Source: a virus. From it: DNA of 34,100 nucleotides. Positions 1 to 34,100 of this stretch are shown piece after piece. The DNA is taken from the IMG/VR virus record IMGVR_UViG_3300030450_003723, positions 1 through 34,100 of that record. One strand, 5' to 3'. The stretch's first letter is position 1. Every line of letters starts with the position of its first letter. The notes beneath the pieces are model-generated. The model ran no database searches. It saw only the letters and a list, made by a program, of their open reading frames with translations, and was not told the DNA's origin. Position numbers and translations under genes: made by a program.

Positions 1-913
1 CTTCTGCTGGAAAAACAATATGCATTCTTTTAATTTTAATAGATTATGCAATAAAAAACCCAAATAAAGAAATAAGTATTGTATCTGCATCTGTCCCTCA
101 TCTTCGTAGAGGTGTTTTAAAGGACTTTCTTTCTATTCTTAATAGTTTACATAGGTTTAAAGATAATCAGTTTAACAGGAGCTCCCTTAAATATACTTTT
201 ACTAATAATAGTTATATAGAATTCTTTAGTACAGACCAACCTGATAAATTAAGAGGAGCAAGAAGAACAGACTTATTTATAAATGAGTGTAACAACGTTA
301 GCTTTGAATCTTACAATCAATTAATGGTTAGAACATCAGGTAGTATATGGTTAGACTATAATCCATCAATATTATTTTGGGTAGATAAAGAATTAATAGG
401 CCAAGAAGATACAGATTTTATTACCCTTACTTATAAAGATAATGAGGTATTACCACGAAGTATAGTTAAAGAAATAGAAAAAGCAAAGGAAAAAGGAAAA
501 ACATCTACTTACTGGGCCAATTGGTGGAAGGTATATGGATTAGGTGAATTAGGAAGTTTAGAAGGTGTTTGTATTTCTGATTGGAAGGAAATAAGTAATA
601 TACCAAATGAAGCAAGACTATTAAGCTACGGTATGGACTTTGGATATAGTGTAGACCCAACAACATTAATTGCTTTATATAAATGGAATGAAGCTTATAT
701 ATTTGATGAAGTTCTATATAAAAAAGGAATGTTAAATAGAGATATTAGCAGAACATTAACACAATTAGATATAAAAGAAAATATAATAGCAGATAGTGCT
801 GAGCCAAAAAGTATAGCCGAACTTGTAGGATATGGCCATAATGTTTATCCTGTAAGTAAAGGAAGGGATAGTGTAGTATATGGAATTAACTTAATAAACC
901 AAAACGAAATATA
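1..913. repeat. Left copy of diverged terminal direct repeat (terL region)
   Basis: Bases 1-913 align without gaps to 33188-34100. I count about 37 substitutions (about 96% identity). Most fall in third codon positions; only about five amino acids of terL change (Gly-Ser to Asn-Asn, Arg to Gln, Ser to Pro, Ala to Ser). The pattern is that of two natural variants under purifying selection, not random sequencing error. It implies a genome unit of about 33,187 bp read slightly past one full turn. Confidence 0.9.
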
Positions 914-3562: not shown

Positions 3563-5112
3563 GTACAAAGATAAACGCAAGAAGTCCATTTTATTTAAGT
3601 TATACAGAACCTACAGTTCCAACTCCTACTTTTAATTGTACTATAGCAGGGCCAACAAGTTCTTCAAGTGGAGAAAGTAATAAATTTGATGTTGACCAAG
3701 CAGGAGTTATAACACTTCCTTTACTTGATTTTGGACAGATTGATTCTATATCAAGTTCTGATTCAGGTTTTGCAAATGACAAATATGCTACAGTATCTAC
3801 CCCTACAACAAGAACTATTACTTTAAAAATTAGAATACCTGATGGATTTTCAAATACTTCTGATGTGTTTTTTAATTGTGATGTAACTGCAACCCAACCT
3901 ACTTTTAGCGCAGGAAGTTCTTGTACAACTAATACAACTTTAAATGGATCAGTACCTACTCAAACTATTACAAGAGGTGGATCTACAGCATCAGTTACTT
4001 TATCGAGTTATTTTACAGCAGGAAGTTCTGCAATTACAGGATATACAATTACAAATAACCATACAGAATTTGTAACTACTTCTTTAAGCGGATCAGGAGC
4101 AAGTCAAACATTAACATTAAATTCTTCTGACATTTGTGATACCAAAGTTATTTATGTAACAGCAACAGATGCATTAGACAATAGTTGTCCTGCGGTGCAA
4201 CCTATAACAGTTACAATAAATGGATGTGGAGCAGCAACTTGTAGTGATAATAGTTTTTCAGGAGGATCAATAAATCAAGCAGGAACAACAATTACAAAAC
4301 CTTATGCTTCTTTTGGAACAGTAGGAAATATATCTTTAACAGATGGAGGAGCACCAATTACAAGTGTAGCTGCTAATAGTGGAGCAACCTCCCAAGATGT
4401 TACATTATGGTTTACTTTAACAGTGCCTGATGGATATTCTAACGCAGGTTCTTCTATAAATTGTTCATTTGTTTTATCACAAGCAGGAACAGGATTAGAT
4501 GCAGGAACTTGTGAATTAGCTAATTTATCAGGTCAGTCAATTTCTACAAGGGGAGTTATTGATCCAGGTGTTGCTAATCATGATGCTTTTTATACAGGAA
4601 CTCCAATTGCAGTAGGAACAAGCTTACCTAATGTTACTGATAGATATGAAGAAGTTAATGAAGATACACCAAGAACTCCTAAAATTAAAGTAACTGTAGG
4701 AACAGGATTTTCTAATTCAGGAGCAATATTAGAATGTCCTATAAACTTAACACAACCTGCAATATTACCAAGTTGTTTTGCAGCAGGGGCAAGTACAGAA
4801 TTTTATATAAGCCAAGGTTTTTCTAATCCTTTTGATGTAACTACAGTTTGTCAAAATACATATTCTGTAAATAAACCAGTTAAAAGAAGTAACACAATAG
4901 CTAACATGGAAGATTTAGCAACTAATAATGGTTTAGTTTGTGAAGGATCTACTCCATTTAGAGGAGGGGGTTTATGGTATGTAGCAGCATCTTTATCATT
5001 CTTAAAAGCAGGAAAAAGAGGATCAGCTAATCAATTAATTAGAATTAACGACAATGGTATGTGTATTGATTATTTATGGTTTAGCTGTCAAACATTAACA
5101 ACAGGAAGTTAA
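3559..5112 (+). CDS. Virion protein with repeated Ig-like/BACON-like domains (517 aa)
   Basis: A Ser/Thr/Gly-rich protein beginning MSTKINARSPFYLSYTEP. Three related modules of about 90-100 residues can be aligned by eye. Each ends with a pattern of a Gly-Phe/Tyr-Ser-Asn turn, a Cys-containing strand and a final Gln: IPDGFSN...FNCDVTATQP near residue 110, VPDGYSN...INCSFVLSQA near 310, VGTGFSN...LECPINLTQP near 395. Between modules one and two lies a cadherin-like piece (YFTAGSSAITGYTITN; VTATDALDNSCPAVQPITVTI). The C-terminal 110 residues form a separate globular domain. Repeated Ig folds on the outside of virions often bind host surface sugars. It could be a tail decoration or a fibre-like protein. 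Confidence 0.65.
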   Translation: MSTKINARSPFYLSYTEPTVPTPTFNCTIAGPTSSSSGESNKFDVDQAGVITLPLLDFGQIDSISSSDSGFANDKYATVSTPTTRTITLKIRIPDGFSNTSDVFFNCDVTATQPTFSAGSSCTTNTTLNGSVPTQTITRGGSTASVTLSSYFTAGSSAITGYTITNNHTEFVTTSLSGSGASQTLTLNSSDICDTKVIYVTATDALDNSCPAVQPITVTINGCGAATCSDNSFSGGSINQAGTTITKPYASFGTVGNISLTDGGAPITSVAANSGATSQDVTLWFTLTVPDGYSNAGSSINCSFVLSQAGTGLDAGTCELANLSGQSISTRGVIDPGVANHDAFYTGTPIAVGTSLPNVTDRYEEVNEDTPRTPKIKVTVGTGFSNSGAILECPINLTQPAILPSCFAAGASTEFYISQGFSNPFDVTTVCQNTYSVNKPVKRSNTIANMEDLATNNGLVCEGSTPFRGGGLWYVAASLSFLKAGKRGSANQLIRINDNGMCIDYLWFSCQTLTTGS

Positions 5113-5122
5113 AAATAATATT

Positions 5123-6109
5123 ATGAGTTTAAGAACAGCAATATTACAATTATATGTTTATTCAGGAACAGAAGGAGCACAAACAACAAGTGATCTAAAA
5201 TATACTATTGAAAAAGAAATTATTGATGGTGATACTAAAATACTTTTTGAAATAGGTGAATTAGTAAGAGATTATATAGACATAACTTTTAATGATGATT
5301 ATGTATGTAATACTAAATGGGTAACAGCAATCACTACCCTATATGATGAAAATAATGAAATATTTACCTATAGCAATCCTGTAACTAATCATTATGTTGC
5401 TTTAAATGGTTATGGTTATTTTGAAGATGAAATAAATCCCCAATTATCTACAGATGCTTTAGTAAGCAGTACTTATATGTATATACCTGAAAGCACAACA
5501 TCTAAAATAGGTGTTTGGGCAGAAGGTGTTGGAAAAGTAACAATAGATGGTTCAGATACTGAAATAACTGATAATGGTAATTCTAATCAAAAAATACAAT
5601 ATGTAACTATTCCTGCAAATAGTTCAACTATACAAGTTTATGACACGCATGATAGTAGTATTTTAAAAACAATAAATATTACTAATGTATGTGAGCCAAA
5701 ATTTACTCCTTATAAAATAACATTTGTAAACAAGTATGGAGCTTATGAAAATATTTGGTTCTTTAAAAAATCAACAGAAAGTTTAAGTGTAACTGATGAA
5801 AAATTTAAACGTAATACTATTAATAATTCTACAGTTACTTACAACACTTACGAAGGCCAACAAGAAAGATATAATGTCAATGGACTTACTTCACTTAGTT
5901 TAAATACAGGATTTGTAAATGAGGATTTAAATAAAACTATTGAAGAACTATTTTTAAGTGAAAATGTTTGGATCAGATATGAAAGTAAAACACAACCTAT
6001 AATACCAAAATCAAAATCATTTGTTTTTAAAACTAAACTTAATGATAAACTTATAAATTATACAGTAGATTTTGAATTTGCATTTAATAAAATTAACAAT
6101 GTTAGATAA
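5123..6109 (+). CDS. Putative tail/baseplate structural protein (328 aa)
   Basis: A soluble beta-rich protein beginning MSLRTAILQLYVYSGTEGAQ, with an N-terminal domain (IGELVRDYIDITFNDDY, about residues 44-60), a middle Ser/Thr/Asn-rich region and a C-terminal domain starting near KITFVNKYGAYENIWFFKK. The pattern resembles structural proteins that sit beside the large tail protein in many Bacteroidota siphophages and prophages, but I cannot place it in a named family. Its stop codon overlaps the next ATG (6109), suggesting coupled synthesis with the 1127-residue tail protein. Confidence 0.55.
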   Translation: MSLRTAILQLYVYSGTEGAQTTSDLKYTIEKEIIDGDTKILFEIGELVRDYIDITFNDDYVCNTKWVTAITTLYDENNEIFTYSNPVTNHYVALNGYGYFEDEINPQLSTDALVSSTYMYIPESTTSKIGVWAEGVGKVTIDGSDTEITDNGNSNQKIQYVTIPANSSTIQVYDTHDSSILKTINITNVCEPKFTPYKITFVNKYGAYENIWFFKKSTESLSVTDEKFKRNTINNSTVTYNTYEGQQERYNVNGLTSLSLNTGFVNEDLNKTIEELFLSENVWIRYESKTQPIIPKSKSFVFKTKLNDKLINYTVDFEFAFNKINNVR

Positions 6110-28441: not shown

Positions 28442-28699
28442 ATGAATTTATATAAAAAAATAAAATTTGAAAATATAGGATATTATTTAGATTACATGAT
28501 AGATAATAAATACATAGGATCTATAATAATAGAAAAACCCGATAGAAAACAATTTGGATATTATGGTAGAAAACATCATACAGCAACCAAAGATATTATT
28601 ATTAAAAATAAAAAAATAAAAAAAGGTCAAAGATATACTACATATTTAAATCAATTGTGTGGTAAAAGTAATTTTTATGAAAAAATAATACAAAGATGA
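28442..28699 (+). CDS. Hypothetical protein at head of modification block (85 aa)
   Basis: A basic, Tyr/Ile/Lys-rich protein (MNLYKKIKFENIGYYLDYMI; RKQFGYYGRKHHTATKDIII). It has a compact alpha/beta look, one Cys, no membrane segment and no recognised family. It overlaps the following pyrophosphatase by 4 bases and is therefore the first cistron of the candidate hypermodification operon. A role in that pathway is possible but not shown. Confidence 0.55.
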   Translation: MNLYKKIKFENIGYYLDYMIDNKYIGSIIIEKPDRKQFGYYGRKHHTATKDIIIKNKKIKKGQRYTTYLNQLCGKSNFYEKIIQR

Positions 28700-28974
28700 A
28701 AATTAATACAAAGGATCAAATAGTCTTATCTGTTTTAAAAAAAATGGATGAACGTAGTTTAGTTGGCCAAAAAAAATATGGTGCAACTATGATGGAAGAA
28801 ATAGAAGGGCAAAAAAAAGATTTAAATAGATTTCTTAATGATGTACAAGAAGAAATTATGGATGCTCTTTTATATATTGAAGCTGCTAAAAGATGTTTAC
28901 AAGATGAAATTGAAGAAGGTATGTTAAAGCAATATTACACAGGTTCAATTAACGATTATATTAGAAAAAAATGA
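28696..28974 (+). CDS. All-alpha NTP pyrophosphatase-like protein (MazG/dUTPase superfamily), 92 aa
   Basis: The protein would hydrolyse a (deoxy)nucleoside triphosphate to monophosphate and PPi. The pattern Q-K-K-Y-G-A-T-M followed by FLNDVQEEIMDALLYIEAAK (about residues 46-66) gives the EExxD metal-binding arrangement of all-alpha NTP-PPases. The length suits a single-domain phage enzyme. It starts at an ATGA overlap and ends in an overlap with the glucosyltransferase gene. By analogy with T4 gp56 (dCTPase) it may remove dCTP and supply dCMP for the hydroxymethylase nearby, but substrate cannot be read from sequence. Confidence 0.65.
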   Translation: MKINTKDQIVLSVLKKMDERSLVGQKKYGATMMEEIEGQKKDLNRFLNDVQEEIMDALLYIEAAKRCLQDEIEEGMLKQYYTGSINDYIRKK

Positions 28975-30149
28975 GGATAGCAATATTATTAGGACGAGGT
29001 ATTGAAGGTTGTGGTGTAACTAGATTTGCTACAGAATTACAATCTTATTTATTAAATAATAATTATAAATGTGAATCTTTTGCAGGTTTAGATAAAAAAT
29101 GGGGTAGAAAAAATTCCCAAAAAACAAATATAATTGAATTTAATAATGATGAAATAAATAAAATAAAAAATAAATTAAATGAATTCGATATAGTTTTTTA
29201 CCAGTCATTACCTAGTAAATCTAATTCAGAGTTCTATAAAAATAAATTTTTTGATGAATTAGTATTAAATATAAATAAACCATTAAAAATAATTTTTCAG
29301 AATGATCATAAAATACATTCTTTAAATAGGAATAGTATGTTATGGGAAACAGTATCTGAAATGGATTGTGCTTTTACTTTTGGAAAAGGAACTGTGTTTA
29401 ATAAAAAAATAAAACAATTAAATATAAATACACCTGTAAAGTTTTTTAATAATGGTCATGATTTTACTAAATTAACTCATTTAATAAAAAAAGAACAAAC
29501 CAAAAAATTATCTTACTTAGGTAGATTTGCCACTTTTAAAGAGCCTGATAGAATGATATATTTGCAACCTTTACTTTCAAAACATAATATAATATGTGAG
29601 GCTAGAGGTATAGAGAAATCAATAGGAGCTAAAACAAAGTTTTTTTCTACTGATCAAAAAGATTTAAAATCACCAGAACATAGTAATATTAAATATAGAA
29701 ATAAAAGTATAGTTGATGAACAAGATTTAAATTATTTACATGTATATGGACCTTATGATAGATTACCAACTTTAGAATTATTATCCAATAATATGTTTGG
29801 TGCAAATTTTTTTAATTTAAAAAAAGAAGAATATAATAATATAATAGAATATACAACATTAGAAATGATAAACATAGGTATGATTGTTGTTGTTGATAAA
29901 CAATGGGCACAAAATAATTATCATATTGAAGGTGATAGTTTTTATGACTTAAATTGTTTTATTTATAATGATAGAAATGATTATAATTCTACAGTAAACA
30001 ATATAGTTGAGTTAGCTAATAATCAAGAATTAAGAAGTAAAAAAAGAAGATTAGCATATAACGTTGCTAAAAGCCATTGTGATGTGAATATAGCTTTTAA
30101 AGATTTAATAAATAAAGCAAAACAAGTAAACAAGTATGTGGCAATTTAA
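28971..30149 (+). CDS. DNA glucosyltransferase, T4 alpha-glucosyltransferase (AGT)-like
   Basis: A 392-residue GT-B fold enzyme, close to the length of T4 AGT (about 400). The N-terminus MRIAILLGRGIEGCGVTRFA resembles, from memory, the T4 AGT start (RGLEGCGVTKF). Other matching points are FQNDHKIHSLNRN (residues 109-121, cf. QHDH in AGT), LGRFATFK with Arg185 and Lys190 (183-190, cf. GRTTTWK), and EYTTLEMINIGMIVVVDK (293-310, cf. EYTHLE). AGT transfers glucose from UDP-glucose to 5-hydroxymethylcytosine in DNA. The upstream pyrophosphatase and downstream ThyA-family gene fit that pathway. A sugar-modifying enzyme for another target is the alternative. Confidence 0.75.
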   Translation: MRIAILLGRGIEGCGVTRFATELQSYLLNNNYKCESFAGLDKKWGRKNSQKTNIIEFNNDEINKIKNKLNEFDIVFYQSLPSKSNSEFYKNKFFDELVLNINKPLKIIFQNDHKIHSLNRNSMLWETVSEMDCAFTFGKGTVFNKKIKQLNINTPVKFFNNGHDFTKLTHLIKKEQTKKLSYLGRFATFKEPDRMIYLQPLLSKHNIICEARGIEKSIGAKTKFFSTDQKDLKSPEHSNIKYRNKSIVDEQDLNYLHVYGPYDRLPTLELLSNNMFGANFFNLKKEEYNNIIEYTTLEMINIGMIVVVDKQWAQNNYHIEGDSFYDLNCFIYNDRNDYNSTVNNIVELANNQELRSKKRRLAYNVAKSHCDVNIAFKDLINKAKQVNKYVAI

Positions 30150-30795
30150 AAATACTACAGAAGCCTTTGAACATTATTACATTAAAATAGATTCACAACC
30201 GCCTTCACCTAATGGAACAAAATTTTTAGTTAATCAGATTTTTACAATAACAGATACTTCAGATCATATAATTAAAACTCCATGGAGAAATTTTAAAATA
30301 GATTATGCAGAAGCAGAATGGAAATGGTATTTATCCAAAAATAGATCAGCGAAAGAAATTGCTAAACTAGCTAATGTATGGTATAATCACATGGATGAAC
30401 GTGGTTATGTTAATTCAAATTATGGTTGGCAATGGAATAGAAATAATCAAATAGAATATATTATTAATGAATTAAAAAGAGATAAATATTCTCGTAGAGC
30501 TTTAATAACTATTTATGATGCAAAAGAACATGATCAATATAAAAACGATACTCCTTGTACTTTAAACATACAATTTTATTTTACACCAGATTCAGATAAA
30601 TTACACATGACTGTTTTAATGAGAAGCAATGATTTGTGGTATGGTTTTTGTAATGATTCATATTGTTTTTTAAAACTACATCAATTAATTTGTAATAATT
30701 TAAATACAGAACAAGGATTTTATACGCATTTTGCTCAGAATATACATATATATGAAAAACATTATAATAAAGTATTAAAATATAATAACTTATGA
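30136..30795 (+). CDS. Thymidylate synthase-family protein, candidate dCMP hydroxymethylase
   Basis: A 219-residue member of the thymidylate synthase/pyrimidine hydroxymethylase family. Visible family parts are YGWQW (96-100), QIEYIINELKRDKYSRRALI with Arg120-Arg121, the catalytic Cys141 in DTPCTLNIQFYF, MRSNDLWYGFCND (162-174) and IHIYEKHY near the end. Thymidylate synthase has Asn in GLPFN. Here Asp174 falls at the same distance after the Gly, as in the dCMP-hydroxymethylase type; Asn173 next to it makes the alignment slightly ambiguous. The gene overlaps the glucosyltransferase by 14 bases. Ordinary dTMP synthesis remains possible. Confidence 0.72.
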   Translation: MWQFKNTTEAFEHYYIKIDSQPPSPNGTKFLVNQIFTITDTSDHIIKTPWRNFKIDYAEAEWKWYLSKNRSAKEIAKLANVWYNHMDERGYVNSNYGWQWNRNNQIEYIINELKRDKYSRRALITIYDAKEHDQYKNDTPCTLNIQFYFTPDSDKLHMTVLMRSNDLWYGFCNDSYCFLKLHQLICNNLNTEQGFYTHFAQNIHIYEKHYNKVLKYNNL

Positions 30796-31097
30796 ATTTA
30801 AAAAATGAATTTAATTCCATTAGACTTTGGGCTAATGAAAGAAAAATAACAAATAAAGGTGATAATAAGACTCAGTTAGTTAAATTAGTTGAAGAAATAG
30901 GTGAATTATCAAAAGCGATATTAGAAAATAATAGTACAGAAATAGAAGATGCTATTGGGGATAGTGTAGTTGTTTTAACTAATTTAGCAACATTAAGTAA
31001 TTTAAGAATAGAAGATTGTATTAATAGTGCTTATAAAGAAATAAAAAATAGAGAAGGTAAAATAATTAATGGAACATTTGTAAAAAATAAAATATGA
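30792..31097 (+). CDS. MazG-like NTP pyrophosphatase (101 aa)
   Basis: A clear MazG-type all-alpha domain: TQLVKLVEEIGELSKAILEN (about residues 28-47; the EExxE motif), STEIEDAIGDSVVVLTNLAT (about 49-68; the EDAIGD motif) and INSAYKEIKNREGKIINGTF, which carries the usual Arg-x-Gly end. It would hydrolyse NTPs or dNTPs with Mg2+. It is coupled by ATGA overlaps to the ThyA-family gene before it and the exonuclease after it. Two pyrophosphatases in one small operon suggest separate substrates, for example dCTP and dUTP. Confidence 0.82.
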   Translation: MNLKNEFNSIRLWANERKITNKGDNKTQLVKLVEEIGELSKAILENNSTEIEDAIGDSVVVLTNLATLSNLRIEDCINSAYKEIKNREGKIINGTFVKNKI

Positions 31098-32158
31098 AAT
31101 ATGTAAATGCTGATCAGCAATTAAATAAAATAAATAAAAATACAGGTAAAAAATATAAAACAATAACATTTAATTGTGAAAAAAATAGATTTAACACGTG
31201 GGTTGGTTTAAAATTAATGATAAAATATAAAGGAGAAGATATAGAATTTGTAAATAAAGAACACATAAAAATTTTAGAAGACCATTTAAATGAAACTCAA
31301 AATTCAACAGCAGATTCTTGTTTTATATGGGAAAAAGATTTAATGAGCATATTAGTTAAAATGAAAGACACAGAAAAAGTCCAATTATTAAATGGTGAAT
31401 TTTATAATAAAAAAGAATTATTATCAAAAATGTATAGTGATGGATTTTATTATGGTGAGTTAGGAAAATTAGCACTTTCATCCTCAGCAATAAAATCATT
31501 ATTAGATTCTCCAAAAGCATATAAAAGATCTTTATATTTTAAATCTGATTCCGGTGTTTTTAAAACAGGAAGACTAATACATTTAGCAGCATTAGAACCA
31601 GATAAAATAGATTCTTTATGTCATATAGTTAATTGTAAAACTTATGCTTGTAAAGAATATAAAGAAAAAGTAAAAGAGGTTGGTAGTCCTAATTTTGTTT
31701 TTACAATAAAAGAATATGATAAAGCTATGTATTTAGTAGATGCATTATTACAAAATGATGTTTGGCAGGATTTTACAAGAAATGCTAAATTTGAAATTCC
31801 TGGTTTTGATATAGTTAATGGTCATCCTTTTAGAGCAAAAGCAGATATATTAAGTGATGATACTATGGGAGATTTAAAAACAACAAGTGATTTAAAAGCA
31901 TTTAAATATGCATCTAAAAAATATAGTTATGATGTACAAGTTTATTTATATTGTAATATATTTAAAAGACATTATAAAGATTTTATGTTTTTTGCTTTAG
32001 ATAAATCTACAGGTGATTTAGGGATATATGATATAAGTGAAAGTTTTTATGATAGCGGAAAGGATAAAGTTTTATATGCAATAGATATTTATGAAAAATA
32101 TTTTAGAGATGAAGAGGAGGATTTGAATAATTATATAATAAAAGGTACACTTGAATAA
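31094..32158 (+). CDS. PD-(D/E)XK exonuclease, RecE-like (354 aa)
   Basis: The nuclease core is in the C-terminal 225 residues: LSSSAIKSLLDSPKAYKRSL (about 128-147), TGRLIHLAALEP with Gly159/His163, the motif II-III run FRAKADILSDDTMGDLKTT with Asp251, Asp260 and Lys262, and YDVQVYLY (motif IV-like Gln). This matches the exodeoxyribonuclease VIII/PDDEXK_12 family. The N-terminal 115 residues are extra and of unknown function (FNTWVGLKLMIKYKGEDIEF). It would trim dsDNA ends to load the ERF annealing protein. Start overlaps the MazG stop by 4 bases. Confidence 0.82.
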   Translation: MKYVNADQQLNKINKNTGKKYKTITFNCEKNRFNTWVGLKLMIKYKGEDIEFVNKEHIKILEDHLNETQNSTADSCFIWEKDLMSILVKMKDTEKVQLLNGEFYNKKELLSKMYSDGFYYGELGKLALSSSAIKSLLDSPKAYKRSLYFKSDSGVFKTGRLIHLAALEPDKIDSLCHIVNCKTYACKEYKEKVKEVGSPNFVFTIKEYDKAMYLVDALLQNDVWQDFTRNAKFEIPGFDIVNGHPFRAKADILSDDTMGDLKTTSDLKAFKYASKKYSYDVQVYLYCNIFKRHYKDFMFFALDKSTGDLGIYDISESFYDSGKDKVLYAIDIYEKYFRDEEEDLNNYIIKGTLE

Positions 32159-33112: not shown

Positions 33113-34100
33113 TGATAGTTAAAAAAACTATTGCATTATCAAAATTACAAAAGTTAGAAAATCGTATTAAAATAGTTAGAGGAGGTACTTCTGCTGGAAA
33201 AACAATATGTATTCTTTTAATTTTAATAGATTATGCAATAAAAAACCCAAATAAAGAAATAAGTATTGTATCTGCATCTGTCCCTCATCTTCGTAGAGGT
33301 GTTTTAAAGGACTTTCTATCTATTCTTAATAGTTTACATAGGTTTAAAGATAATCAATTTAACAGGAGCTCCCTTAAATATACTTTTACTAACAATAGTT
33401 ATATAGAATTCTTTAGTACAGATCAACCTGATAAATTAAGAGGGGCCAGAAGAACAGATTTATTTATAAATGAATGTAACAATGTTAGCTTTGAATCTTA
33501 TAACCAATTAATGGTTAGAACATCAAATAATATATGGTTAGATTATAATCCATCAATATTATTCTGGGTAGATAAAGAATTAATAGGCCAAGAAGATACA
33601 GATTTCATTACACTTACTTATAAAGATAATGAGGTATTACCACAAAGTATAGTTAAAGAAATAGAAAAAGCAAAGGAAAAAGGAAAAACATCTACTTACT
33701 GGGCTAATTGGTGGAAGGTATATGGATTAGGAGAATTAGGAAGTTTAGAAGGAGTATGTATTCCTGACTGGAAGGAAATAAGTAATATACCAAATGAAGC
33801 AAGATTATTAAGCTACGGTATGGATTTTGGATATAGTGTAGACCCAACAACATTAATTGCTTTATATAAATGGAATGAATCCTATATATTTGATGAAGTT
33901 CTATATAAAAAAGGAATGTTAAATAGGGATATTAGCAGGACATTAACACAATTAGATATAAAAGAAAATATAATAGCAGATAGTGCAGAACCAAAAAGTA
34001 TTGCAGAACTTGTAGGATATGGTCATAATGTTTATCCTGTAAGTAAAGGAAGGGATAGTGTAGTATATGGAATTAACTTAATAAACCAAAACGAAATATA
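33112..34100 (+). CDS. terL: Terminase large subunit, 3'-truncated at window edge (second variant)
   Basis: The true N-terminus is visible here: MIVKKTIALSKLQKLENRIK followed by the Walker A motif GGTSAGKT (residues 24-31). TDLFINE (Walker B, about residues 115-121) and the first nuclease acidic residue in MDFGYSVDP (about D238) follow, and the frame is open to the window end at about residue 329. Compared with the left copy the protein has five substitutions, including Asn-Asn for Gly-Ser and Pro for Ser. The two copies are one gene seen twice at the ends of a circular or circularly permuted genome, from two strains. Confidence 0.93.
   Translation, partial: MIVKKTIALSKLQKLENRIKIVRGGTSAGKTICILLILIDYAIKNPNKEISIVSASVPHLRRGVLKDFLSILNSLHRFKDNQFNRSSLKYTFTNNSYIEFFSTDQPDKLRGARRTDLFINECNNVSFESYNQLMVRTSNNIWLDYNPSILFWVDKELIGQEDTDFITLTYKDNEVLPQSIVKEIEKAKEKGKTSTYWANWWKVYGLGELGSLEGVCIPDWKEISNIPNEARLLSYGMDFGYSVDPTTLIALYKWNESYIFDEVLYKKGMLNRDISRTLTQLDIKENIIADSAEPKSIAELVGYGHNVYPVSKGRDSVVYGINLINQNEI
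33188..34100. repeat. Right copy of diverged terminal direct repeat (terL region)
   Basis: Corresponds to bases 1-913 with no indels and about 37 substitutions. See the left copy for the pattern of changes. Exact physical redundancy of a phage end would be identical in sequence, so this overlap records population variation or a tandem of related genomes. Confidence 0.9.

Follow-up and report, generated by a model that had tools for sequence, protein, structure and literature searches.

Records of AGT-type DNA glucosylation come for the most part from T4-like phages, with genomes of ~160-175 kb, and from phage G, at 498 kb (PMC13216743). The T4 dCMP hydroxymethylase is without a C-terminal tail (PMC6400193). 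Modified cytosines are also found in phage VPE25, whose DNA resists bisulfite conversion (PMC4999554), and the MetaGPA study found that Asp at position 177 together with an altered residue at 147 in ThyA homologues marks modified-cytosine contigs, as against ordinary ThyA; the paper contains no mention of Bacteroid-, MazG or siphovir- (PMC8670742). Literature searches found no published Bacteroidota phages with an AGT-hydroxymethylase pathway.

The window analysed here is the whole 34,100-nucleotide stretch of viral record IMGVR_UViG_3300030450_003723. With a 913-bp overlap between its two ends (96% identity), it amounts in practice to a complete genome of ~33.2 kb. We consider it likely, with a probability of roughly 0.8, that this phage makes alpha-glucosyl-5-hydroxymethylcytosine DNA by a minimal pathway that relies on kinases of the host and probably also on its replicase, and that its AGT and hydroxymethylase genes form an imported, exchangeable module.

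By portal protein, the closest deposited relative is Nonlabens phage P12024S (Inhavirus; 37%), which resembles the window phage in size, early-gene set and Bacteroidota host but lacks an annotated hydroxymethylase, glucosyltransferase or MazG. The bacterial contigs that carry related hydroxymethylases belong to MAG bins with mixed labels (Sphingobacteriaceae, Saprospiraceae, Flavobacteriaceae, Aliivibrio and others) and do not pin down the host.

A glucosyltransferase beside a hydroxymethylase

The ORF list confirmed the four overlapping genes of the preliminary description at its coordinates (Table 1). The same overlapping run, with 4- to 14-bp overlaps at its junctions, also takes in an upstream ORF (28442-28699) and a downstream exonuclease, which is a recombination partner outside the modification pathway.

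Table 1. Features of the modification locus and its flank, with positions in the window.
Feature	Position	Strand	Basis
92-aa all-helical protein, conserved phage family; proposed NTP-pyrophosphatase-like	28696..28974	+	ORF, family alignment, model
DNA alpha-glucosyltransferase (AGT), T4 AGT family, 392 aa	28971..30149	+	PF11440, phrog_2888, PDB 1y6f, model
Predicted dCMP 5-hydroxymethylase, T4 gp42-like, ThyA fold, 219 aa, Cys141/Thr142/Asp174, no C-terminal tail	30136..30795	+	PF00303 1.4e-24
MazG-type pyrophosphohydrolase; candidate dCTP pyrophosphatase in place of T4 gp56	30792..31097	+	PF03819; phrog_1992/phrog_715
PD-(D/E)XK exonuclease, exonuclease VIII-like	31094..32158	+	PF12684 8.1e-17; phrog_412 1.3e-26
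AGT and hydroxymethylase segment, read as recently imported	28951..30795	+	CTAG map, synonymous-codon shuffles, nucleotide identity

Judged by sequence comparison, the second gene of the four is a full-length homologue of T4 AGT, in keeping with its first description as an AGT-like glucosyltransferase. It matched Pfam PF11440 over residues 14-351 (E 6.8e-15; 55.4 bits against a curated cut-off of 25), phrog_2888 (1.1e-67), and, over residues 1-379, the T4 AGT crystal entries (1y6f; E 7.5e-26). Thirty positions are invariant in an alignment of the window AGT, T4 AGT and the phage G AGTs. When a structural model was used in a fold search, the top nine PDB matches were all T4 AGT (best E 7e-16), followed by BshA at 1e-6; confidence in this model was moderate (pLDDT 61) because the alignment was shallow, and it was used for the family match and not for details.

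The third gene encodes a ThyA homologue of the dCMP-hydroxymethylase type, with a predicted activity converting dCMP to hydroxymethyl-dCMP. Its best PDB relative is T4 gp42 (E 6.9e-14), the catalytic Cys141 is present, and the dCMP-selecting residue at ThyA position 177 is Asp174, aligned with Asp179 of T4 gp42 and Asn177 of E. coli ThyA. Two controls, the SPO1 dUMP hydroxymethylase (gp29) and E. coli ThyA, both have Asn at this dUMP/dCMP switch. The Asp reported earlier holds: the window protein does not carry the dUMP-type Asn. The Cys141/Thr142/Asp174 set was invariant across all fetched hydroxymethylase relatives, and at position 147, the other residue on which the MetaGPA distinction rests, the window protein carries Thr. 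It stops shortly beyond the His-x-Tyr motif, and the ThyA C-terminal tail is missing.

These residues bear on whether the ThyA-like protein might instead act on dUMP, or make hydroxymethyluracil (hmU) or 5-methyl-dCMP, with the transferase decorating that base. One T4 AGT crystal structure (1y8z) includes DNA with hmU, and Asn-to-Asp variants of ThyA can produce 5-methyl-dCMP (PMC8670742). We regard this as highly improbable: Asp174 and Thr142 occur in the window and in all relatives, whereas the SPO1 enzyme has Asn; the tail is missing, as in the T4 hydroxymethylase; and hydroxymethylcytosine (hmC) is the substrate of the AGT and BGT families to which the partner enzymes belong.

The two genes are closely linked in related phages. 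The preliminary description had called for a check of co-occurrence, and the hydroxymethylase proved to be the next gene in 13/13 intact AGT loci with downstream sequence. The hydroxymethylases of these 13 loci and of the window form one clade with support of 100; in a tree with T4 gp42 and phage G the branches were very long, so the placement of those two was not used. Gene order (92-aa gene, AGT, hydroxymethylase, MazG) is kept even in contig L109, where the AGT is only 44% identical. GT4 enzymes, BshA and PimA among them, also have the GT-B fold, and a transferase of this fold could in principle target host surface glycans or another non-DNA acceptor, its place beside the hydroxymethylase being coincidental. 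We give this almost no credence, as the sequence and fold searches both rank T4 AGT first, far ahead of the GT4 enzymes, and the pair is co-inherited and adjoins in every intact locus; the transferase thus groups with T4 AGT and not with surface-glycan families.

Pyrophosphatases, missing partners and the proposed pathway

The identification of the fourth gene as MazG-like was well founded. Its product matched Pfam PF03819 (1.5e-6; 28.8 bits against a curated cut-off of 22) and the MazG-like pyrophosphatase families phrog_1992 and phrog_715 (2e-32 and 8e-30), and E-E-x-x-E and E-x-x-D motifs are visible in the ORF. In 80 of 89 other loci MazG is the neighbour of the hydroxymethylase or lies close to it, but because MazG genes are common across phages generally (1309 phage records), this linkage is no proof of a dCTPase role.

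The first gene had been read as an all-alpha NTP pyrophosphatase. The all-helical part of that reading stood, with a model at pLDDT 82, and an alignment of the family (n=19) showed an invariant E-E-x-x-D motif and invariant D7, R20, G24, Y28, E52, E53, D56 and Y60. The pyrophosphatase class did not: the protein had no match in Pfam, in the PDB by profile or in the PDB by fold (Foldseek), and hhalign probabilities against MazG, DUF6378 and T4 gp56 were below 5%. In most related loci a DUF6378 protein occupies its slot.

T4 requires gp1. Profile searches of the window and 6-9 related contigs found no kinases of the gp1 (PF21448), thymidylate (PF02223) or cytidylate (PF02224) types, in agreement with the preliminary description as regards gp1, no gp56-type dUTPase_2 (PF08761), and no DNA polymerase A (PF00476), family A being the polymerase family searched. 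Host phosphorylation of hydroxymethyl-dCMP is therefore an assumption, and with gp1- and gp56-type genes missing the locus is a partial copy of the T4 pathway that must lean on the host. The earlier T4-like reading is supported, with qualifications: an AGT and an Asp-type hydroxymethylase do adjoin in one genome, but the gp1 and gp56 types are absent and the first gene is no more than a proposed pyrophosphatase. MazG may substitute for gp56.

In the proposed pathway, the hydroxymethylase would convert dCMP to hydroxymethyl-dCMP with methylene-tetrahydrofolate, and MazG would probably hydrolyse dCTP to dCMP, feeding the hydroxymethylase and excluding plain cytosine. Host kinases would phosphorylate hydroxymethyl-dCMP up to the triphosphate, for insertion into DNA by the host replicase. 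Once replication is over, AGT would glucosylate the hydroxymethyl group with UDP-glucose from the host as donor, and the glucose on virion DNA may shield it against restriction and possibly against some Cas nucleases. What the sequence establishes is the enzyme families, their key residues and linkage, the alternative modules and the CTAG pattern; enzyme activities, the MazG substrate, reliance on host kinases and polymerase, glucosylation of virion DNA and protection are inferred. Under this reading, hydroxymethyl-dCMP should be a substrate for host kinases and hydroxymethyl-dCTP for the host replicase, and the presence of the two core enzymes in a genome of this size indicates that the chemistry may require very few genes of the phage.

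The window AGT is only about 26% identical to T4 AGT, so its sugar or acceptor could differ. Another sugar on hmC (arabinose or a host-specific sugar) would have a parallel in RB69, for which PMC6024577 indicates hmC arabinosylation, and the missing phage kinase, family A polymerase and gp56 would also suit partial cytosine modification, through a host polymerase and competition from residual dCTP. Both variants seem unlikely to us. The closest families are the UDP-glucose-using T4 AGTs and the phage G AGT homologues, and no sugar-nucleotide synthesis genes were seen among the annotated window genes.

CTAG sites and a possible exchange slot

Overall avoidance of C-containing palindromes was considered as a marker of modification and was uninformative, at 0.75-0.85 in the window, P12024S, T4 and phage G alike. 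The same comparison exposed a pattern in one palindrome: P12024S avoids GGCC and CCGG, and the window avoids CTAG instead. All four CTAG sites of the window (29020, 29212, 29602 and 30367) lie inside the AGT-hydroxymethylase segment, within 1.8 kb (chance about 9e-6), and the remainder of the window has none, where synonymous-codon shuffles put the expectation for coding sequence at 52. The AGT gene is 85-86% identical in nucleotides to those of three related loci (L002, L003 and L004), whose flanking genes are about 67-72% identical to those of the window.

The confinement of CTAG to the two genes suggests recent import, and the pair was apparently acquired where related phages hold other DNA-decorating enzymes; the module would have entered a genome already purged of every CTAG. 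In a metagenomic contig, a similar picture could arise from chimeric assembly or from chance, and the imperfect overlap of the window ends points to mixed strain variants. We nevertheless find this quite improbable beside recent import, given the CTAG counts, the seamless gene overlaps at the junctions and the excess identity of AGT over its flanks. The pattern suggests that one phage lineage met the same type of host defence first by losing sites and then by modifying bases.

In related phages, the slot next to the hydroxymethylase is filled by AGT, a T4-type beta-glucosyltransferase, a methyltransferase, or a trio of SGNH-like, unknown and PLP-enzyme genes (positions 3315-5984 in contig L079). 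The beta-glucosyltransferase, a second type of hmC-acting enzyme, was found in 7 loci (PF09198 1.5e-13 in contig L090), and contig L110 reads as a natural hybrid of the AGT and PLP types, an assembly chimera at 5205 being the alternative. This hybrid, together with the restriction of CTAG to the AGT-hydroxymethylase module, suggests that decorations are swapped by recombination. We see about even odds that, among these small Bacteroidota phages, the slot beside a fixed dCMP hydroxymethylase-MazG core exchanges cytosine decorations under restriction pressure (alpha-glucose, beta-glucose, a methyltransferase product and the product of the trio, in that case a cytosine hypermodification of a new type). 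Small phages thus appear to trade base chemistries as modular parts, and the slot offers a natural collection of cytosine decorations in which one enzyme set is apparently undescribed.

Comparison with known systems

As in T4 (gp42, AGT, BGT, gp56, gp1), the window combines an AGT-family transferase with an Asp-type, tail-less dCMP hydroxymethylase and an adjacent pyrophosphatase gene, in a genome of 33 kb as against 169 kb. The two core genes adjoin in its overlapping array and lie about 10 kb apart in T4. Unlike T4, it has MazG instead of gp56 and a single transferase, and neither a gp1 kinase nor a family A polymerase was found.

Among deposited phages, the AGT closest to that of the window belongs to Bacillus phage G (gp313/gp306; 32%), which also encodes an Asp-type ThyA homologue (gp319) a few kb from AGT. 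Phage G differs in its 498-kb genome, its two AGT copies and its nearby thymidylate kinase and dCMP deaminase.

The MetaGPA modified-cytosine contigs share with the window a ThyA homologue with Asp at 177 and an altered 147, plus a decorating enzyme, but the one characterised there is a carbamoyltransferase, unlike the window AGT (PMC8670742). The Enterococcus siphophages VPE25 and VFW, like the window phage, pair an Asp-type ThyA homologue (35% identical to that of the window) with a glucosyltransferase; they differ in genome size (86 kb), in their Enterococcus host and in having a beta-glucosyltransferase instead of AGT. By this analogy, VPE25 is the closest tested precedent for the pathway proposed here.

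Genome organization and core enzymes of the cassette

The overlapping ends of the window (1-913 and 33188-34100) are 96% identical, differing at 37 mismatches, which makes the sequence in effect a complete genome that closes into a circle at about 33.2 kb. The ends represent two strain variants of the terminase region, and the join shows strain variation. The four overlapping open reading frames of the preliminary description were all recovered on the plus strand, in an array that extends in both directions (see table); neighbouring frames share 4-14 bases. The rest of the genome is a standard tailed-phage gene set: terminase, portal, head protease, tail and fibre proteins; endolysin and holin; and NinG, Erf, SSB, a DnaB-like helicase and an HTH protein of the DnaA type. 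The nearest deposited relative by portal protein was Nonlabens phage P12024S (37%), whose early region is similar but whose annotated genes include none of the cassette; by way of this relative we infer a siphophage morphology and a Bacteroidota host.

The top PDB relative of the hydroxymethylase was T4 dCMP hydroxymethylase (6.9e-14). Alignment with T4 gp42, phage G gp319, the homologues of VPE25 and Bacteroides phage BF503P4, SPO1 dUMP hydroxymethylase and E. coli ThyA placed D174 at ThyA N177, bearing out the proposal of a ThyA-family protein with Asp near the specificity position, and T142 at ThyA H147; catalytic C141 and E61 and the His-x-Tyr motif were kept, and the dUMP-acting controls, SPO1 and E. 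coli ThyA, had Asn, not Asp. Cys, Thr and Asp occur without exception in the window and in the 89 further loci of the comparison (91 rows, the window counted twice among them). In MetaGPA, modified-cytosine ThyA proteins are best told apart from ordinary ones by positions 147 and 177 (PMC8670742), and the T4 D179N substitution lowers kcat by up to about 3600-fold (PMC6400193). The window protein ends without a C-terminal tail; the T4 enzyme also has none (PMC6400193).

Phage BF503P4 (L094) carries two ThyA-family copies (2154-2915 and 4989-5669). Each has the dCMP-type Asp, but in the first the alignment shows Leu in place of the conserved catalytic Glu. Hydroxymethylase-MazG neighbourhoods were also found on bacterial MAG contigs of several phyla (L112-L119; bins of Sphingobacteriaceae, Saprospiraceae, Flavobacteriaceae, Aliivibrio and others), which are probably phage contigs binned with their hosts.

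The glucosyltransferase matched Pfam AGT (6.8e-15), phrog_2888 (1.1e-67) and, along its entire length, T4 AGT crystal entries (7.5e-26). Thirty positions, among them T4 R204, K209, E306 and E311, were invariant across the window AGT, related AGTs, the two of phage G and that of T4. A structure model predicted with moderate confidence (pLDDT 61) had T4 AGT for all its nine best PDB matches (best 7e-16), with GT4 enzymes trailing at 1e-6. Among 624 deposited phage records with a match, the closest was a phage G protein (32% identical), and the carriers among the matches listed were T4-like phages of ~150-175 kb or phage G, except for one 7-kb and one 13-kb T4 gene record and one 46-kb record with the match at its end.

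Accessory genes and missing pathway parts

The suggested MazG-like gene is MazG by Pfam. Of the 89 other loci, 80 have MazG adjacent to the hydroxymethylase or close by, 58 of these within 50 bases (window copies excluded from both counts). The window copy is the strongest candidate to fill the part played by the T4 dCTPase gp56, with the caveat that MazG is common among phages generally. The first gene encodes an all-helical protein carrying a conserved E-E-x-x-D motif, but Pfam, PDB profile, Foldseek and hhalign searches returned no known match, and the proposed identity as an NTP pyrophosphatase stays putative. It does belong to the cassette neighbourhood: in the related locus L109 the 92-aa gene is likewise followed by AGT, the hydroxymethylase and MazG in exactly this order, even though the L109 AGT is just 44% identical to that of the window.

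Neither the window nor 6-9 related contigs yielded a gp1-type, thymidylate or cytidylate kinase, a gp56-type enzyme or a DNA polymerase of family A. The host would have to phosphorylate hydroxymethyl-dCMP, and would probably incorporate the triphosphate, if the pathway works.

Linkage and ALTERNATIVES: a proposed exchange slot upstream of the hydroxymethylase

Searching by AGT alone retrieved 16 loci, and in all 13 where AGT is intact and the sequence extends past it the next gene is the hydroxymethylase. The hydroxymethylases linked to AGT, 14 when that of the window is counted, make up one side of a branch (SH-aLRT 100). In loci fetched with the hydroxymethylase, the slot flanked by a DUF6378 gene and the hydroxymethylase-MazG pair had varying contents. 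The slot beta-glucosyltransferases match deposited ones full-length, with PF09198 scoring 1.5e-13 in L090 and weakly in L061. The trio comprises an SGNH-like protein with a GDSH motif, a second protein for which Pfam, PHROG and PDB gave no informative match, and a PLP-dependent enzyme (PALP 1.4e-6, under the PALP cut-off); with the dCMP hydroxymethylase it is a candidate for an undescribed cytosine hypermodification. On the hydroxymethylase tree the trio label requires 11 changes and the methyltransferase label 7, indicating that decorations moved repeatedly.

Coordinates of the window array, slot contents and hybrid region (L numbers are related loci or contigs fetched for comparison)
Feature	Sequence	Coordinates	Remark
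Upstream ORF of array	window	28442-28699	
First gene	window	28696-28974	
AGT	window	28971-30149	slot content
Hydroxymethylase	window	30136-30795	
MazG	window	30792-31097	
Exonuclease	window	31094-32158	downstream in array
T4-type beta-glucosyltransferase	L061, L090, L085, L089, L066, L067, L037	L061 1395-2531; L090 4223-5248	slot content, 7 loci
SAM methyltransferase			slot content, 11 loci
Trio	L079, L013, L016, L034, L047, L058, others	L079 3315-5984	slot content, about 25 loci; directly upstream of hydroxymethylase
Hybrid region	L110	5001-5919	inside 95-97% identical backbone

Contig L110 shares 97% nucleotide identity with the AGT phages L003 and L007 as far as about codon 68 of AGT, where the gene is truncated and continues, in frame, as STINSYRDWRDLKDFK, the C-terminal end of the PLP gene (in L079 this gene ends NLIHSYRDWNDLRDFK); a hydroxymethylase from a non-AGT lineage follows, and 95% identity with L003 returns from base 5910. 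The contig looks like a recombination of an AGT module with a trio module that would have broken both decorating enzymes, though it may be an assembly chimera.

CTAG distribution and comparison with known systems

About 77 CTAG sites are expected genome-wide from tri- and dinucleotide counts, whereas the window has four (29020, 29212, 29602 and 30367), every one within AGT or the hydroxymethylase. When synonymous codons were shuffled within each gene, the AGT-hydroxymethylase pair had 4 observed against 1.5 expected and the other annotated genes 0 against 52; the probability of all four falling in 1.8 kb by chance is about 9e-6. The window AGT is 85-86% identical in nucleotides to those of three related loci (L002, L003 and L004), and the flanking genes of these loci about 67-72%. 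The simplest reading is that a lineage long selected against CTAG recently imported the AGT-hydroxymethylase pair, with MazG and the rest resident. The absence of CTAG suggests past hosts with a CTAG-cutting defence, and tolerance of the imported sites would be consistent with a functional cassette or with a switch to another host. P12024S (L095), the relative without the cassette, is under different restriction pressure: it strongly avoids GGCC (0 versus 32 expected) and CCGG (2 versus 32), and CTAG is not avoided.

The proposal of a T4-like pathway is supported, though as a partial copy: both core enzymes of the T4 glucosyl-hydroxymethylcytosine system were recognized by sequence, but no gp1- or gp56-type gene was found in the window. 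The cassette would work like that system. Modified-cytosine chemistry in a siphophage is not new, because the 86-kb siphophage VPE25 has modified cytosine and an Asp-type ThyA homologue, along with a beta-glucosyltransferase (PMC4999554). The novelty lies in the small genome, the compact gene arrangement, the occurrence of AGT among these phages and the exchange slot.
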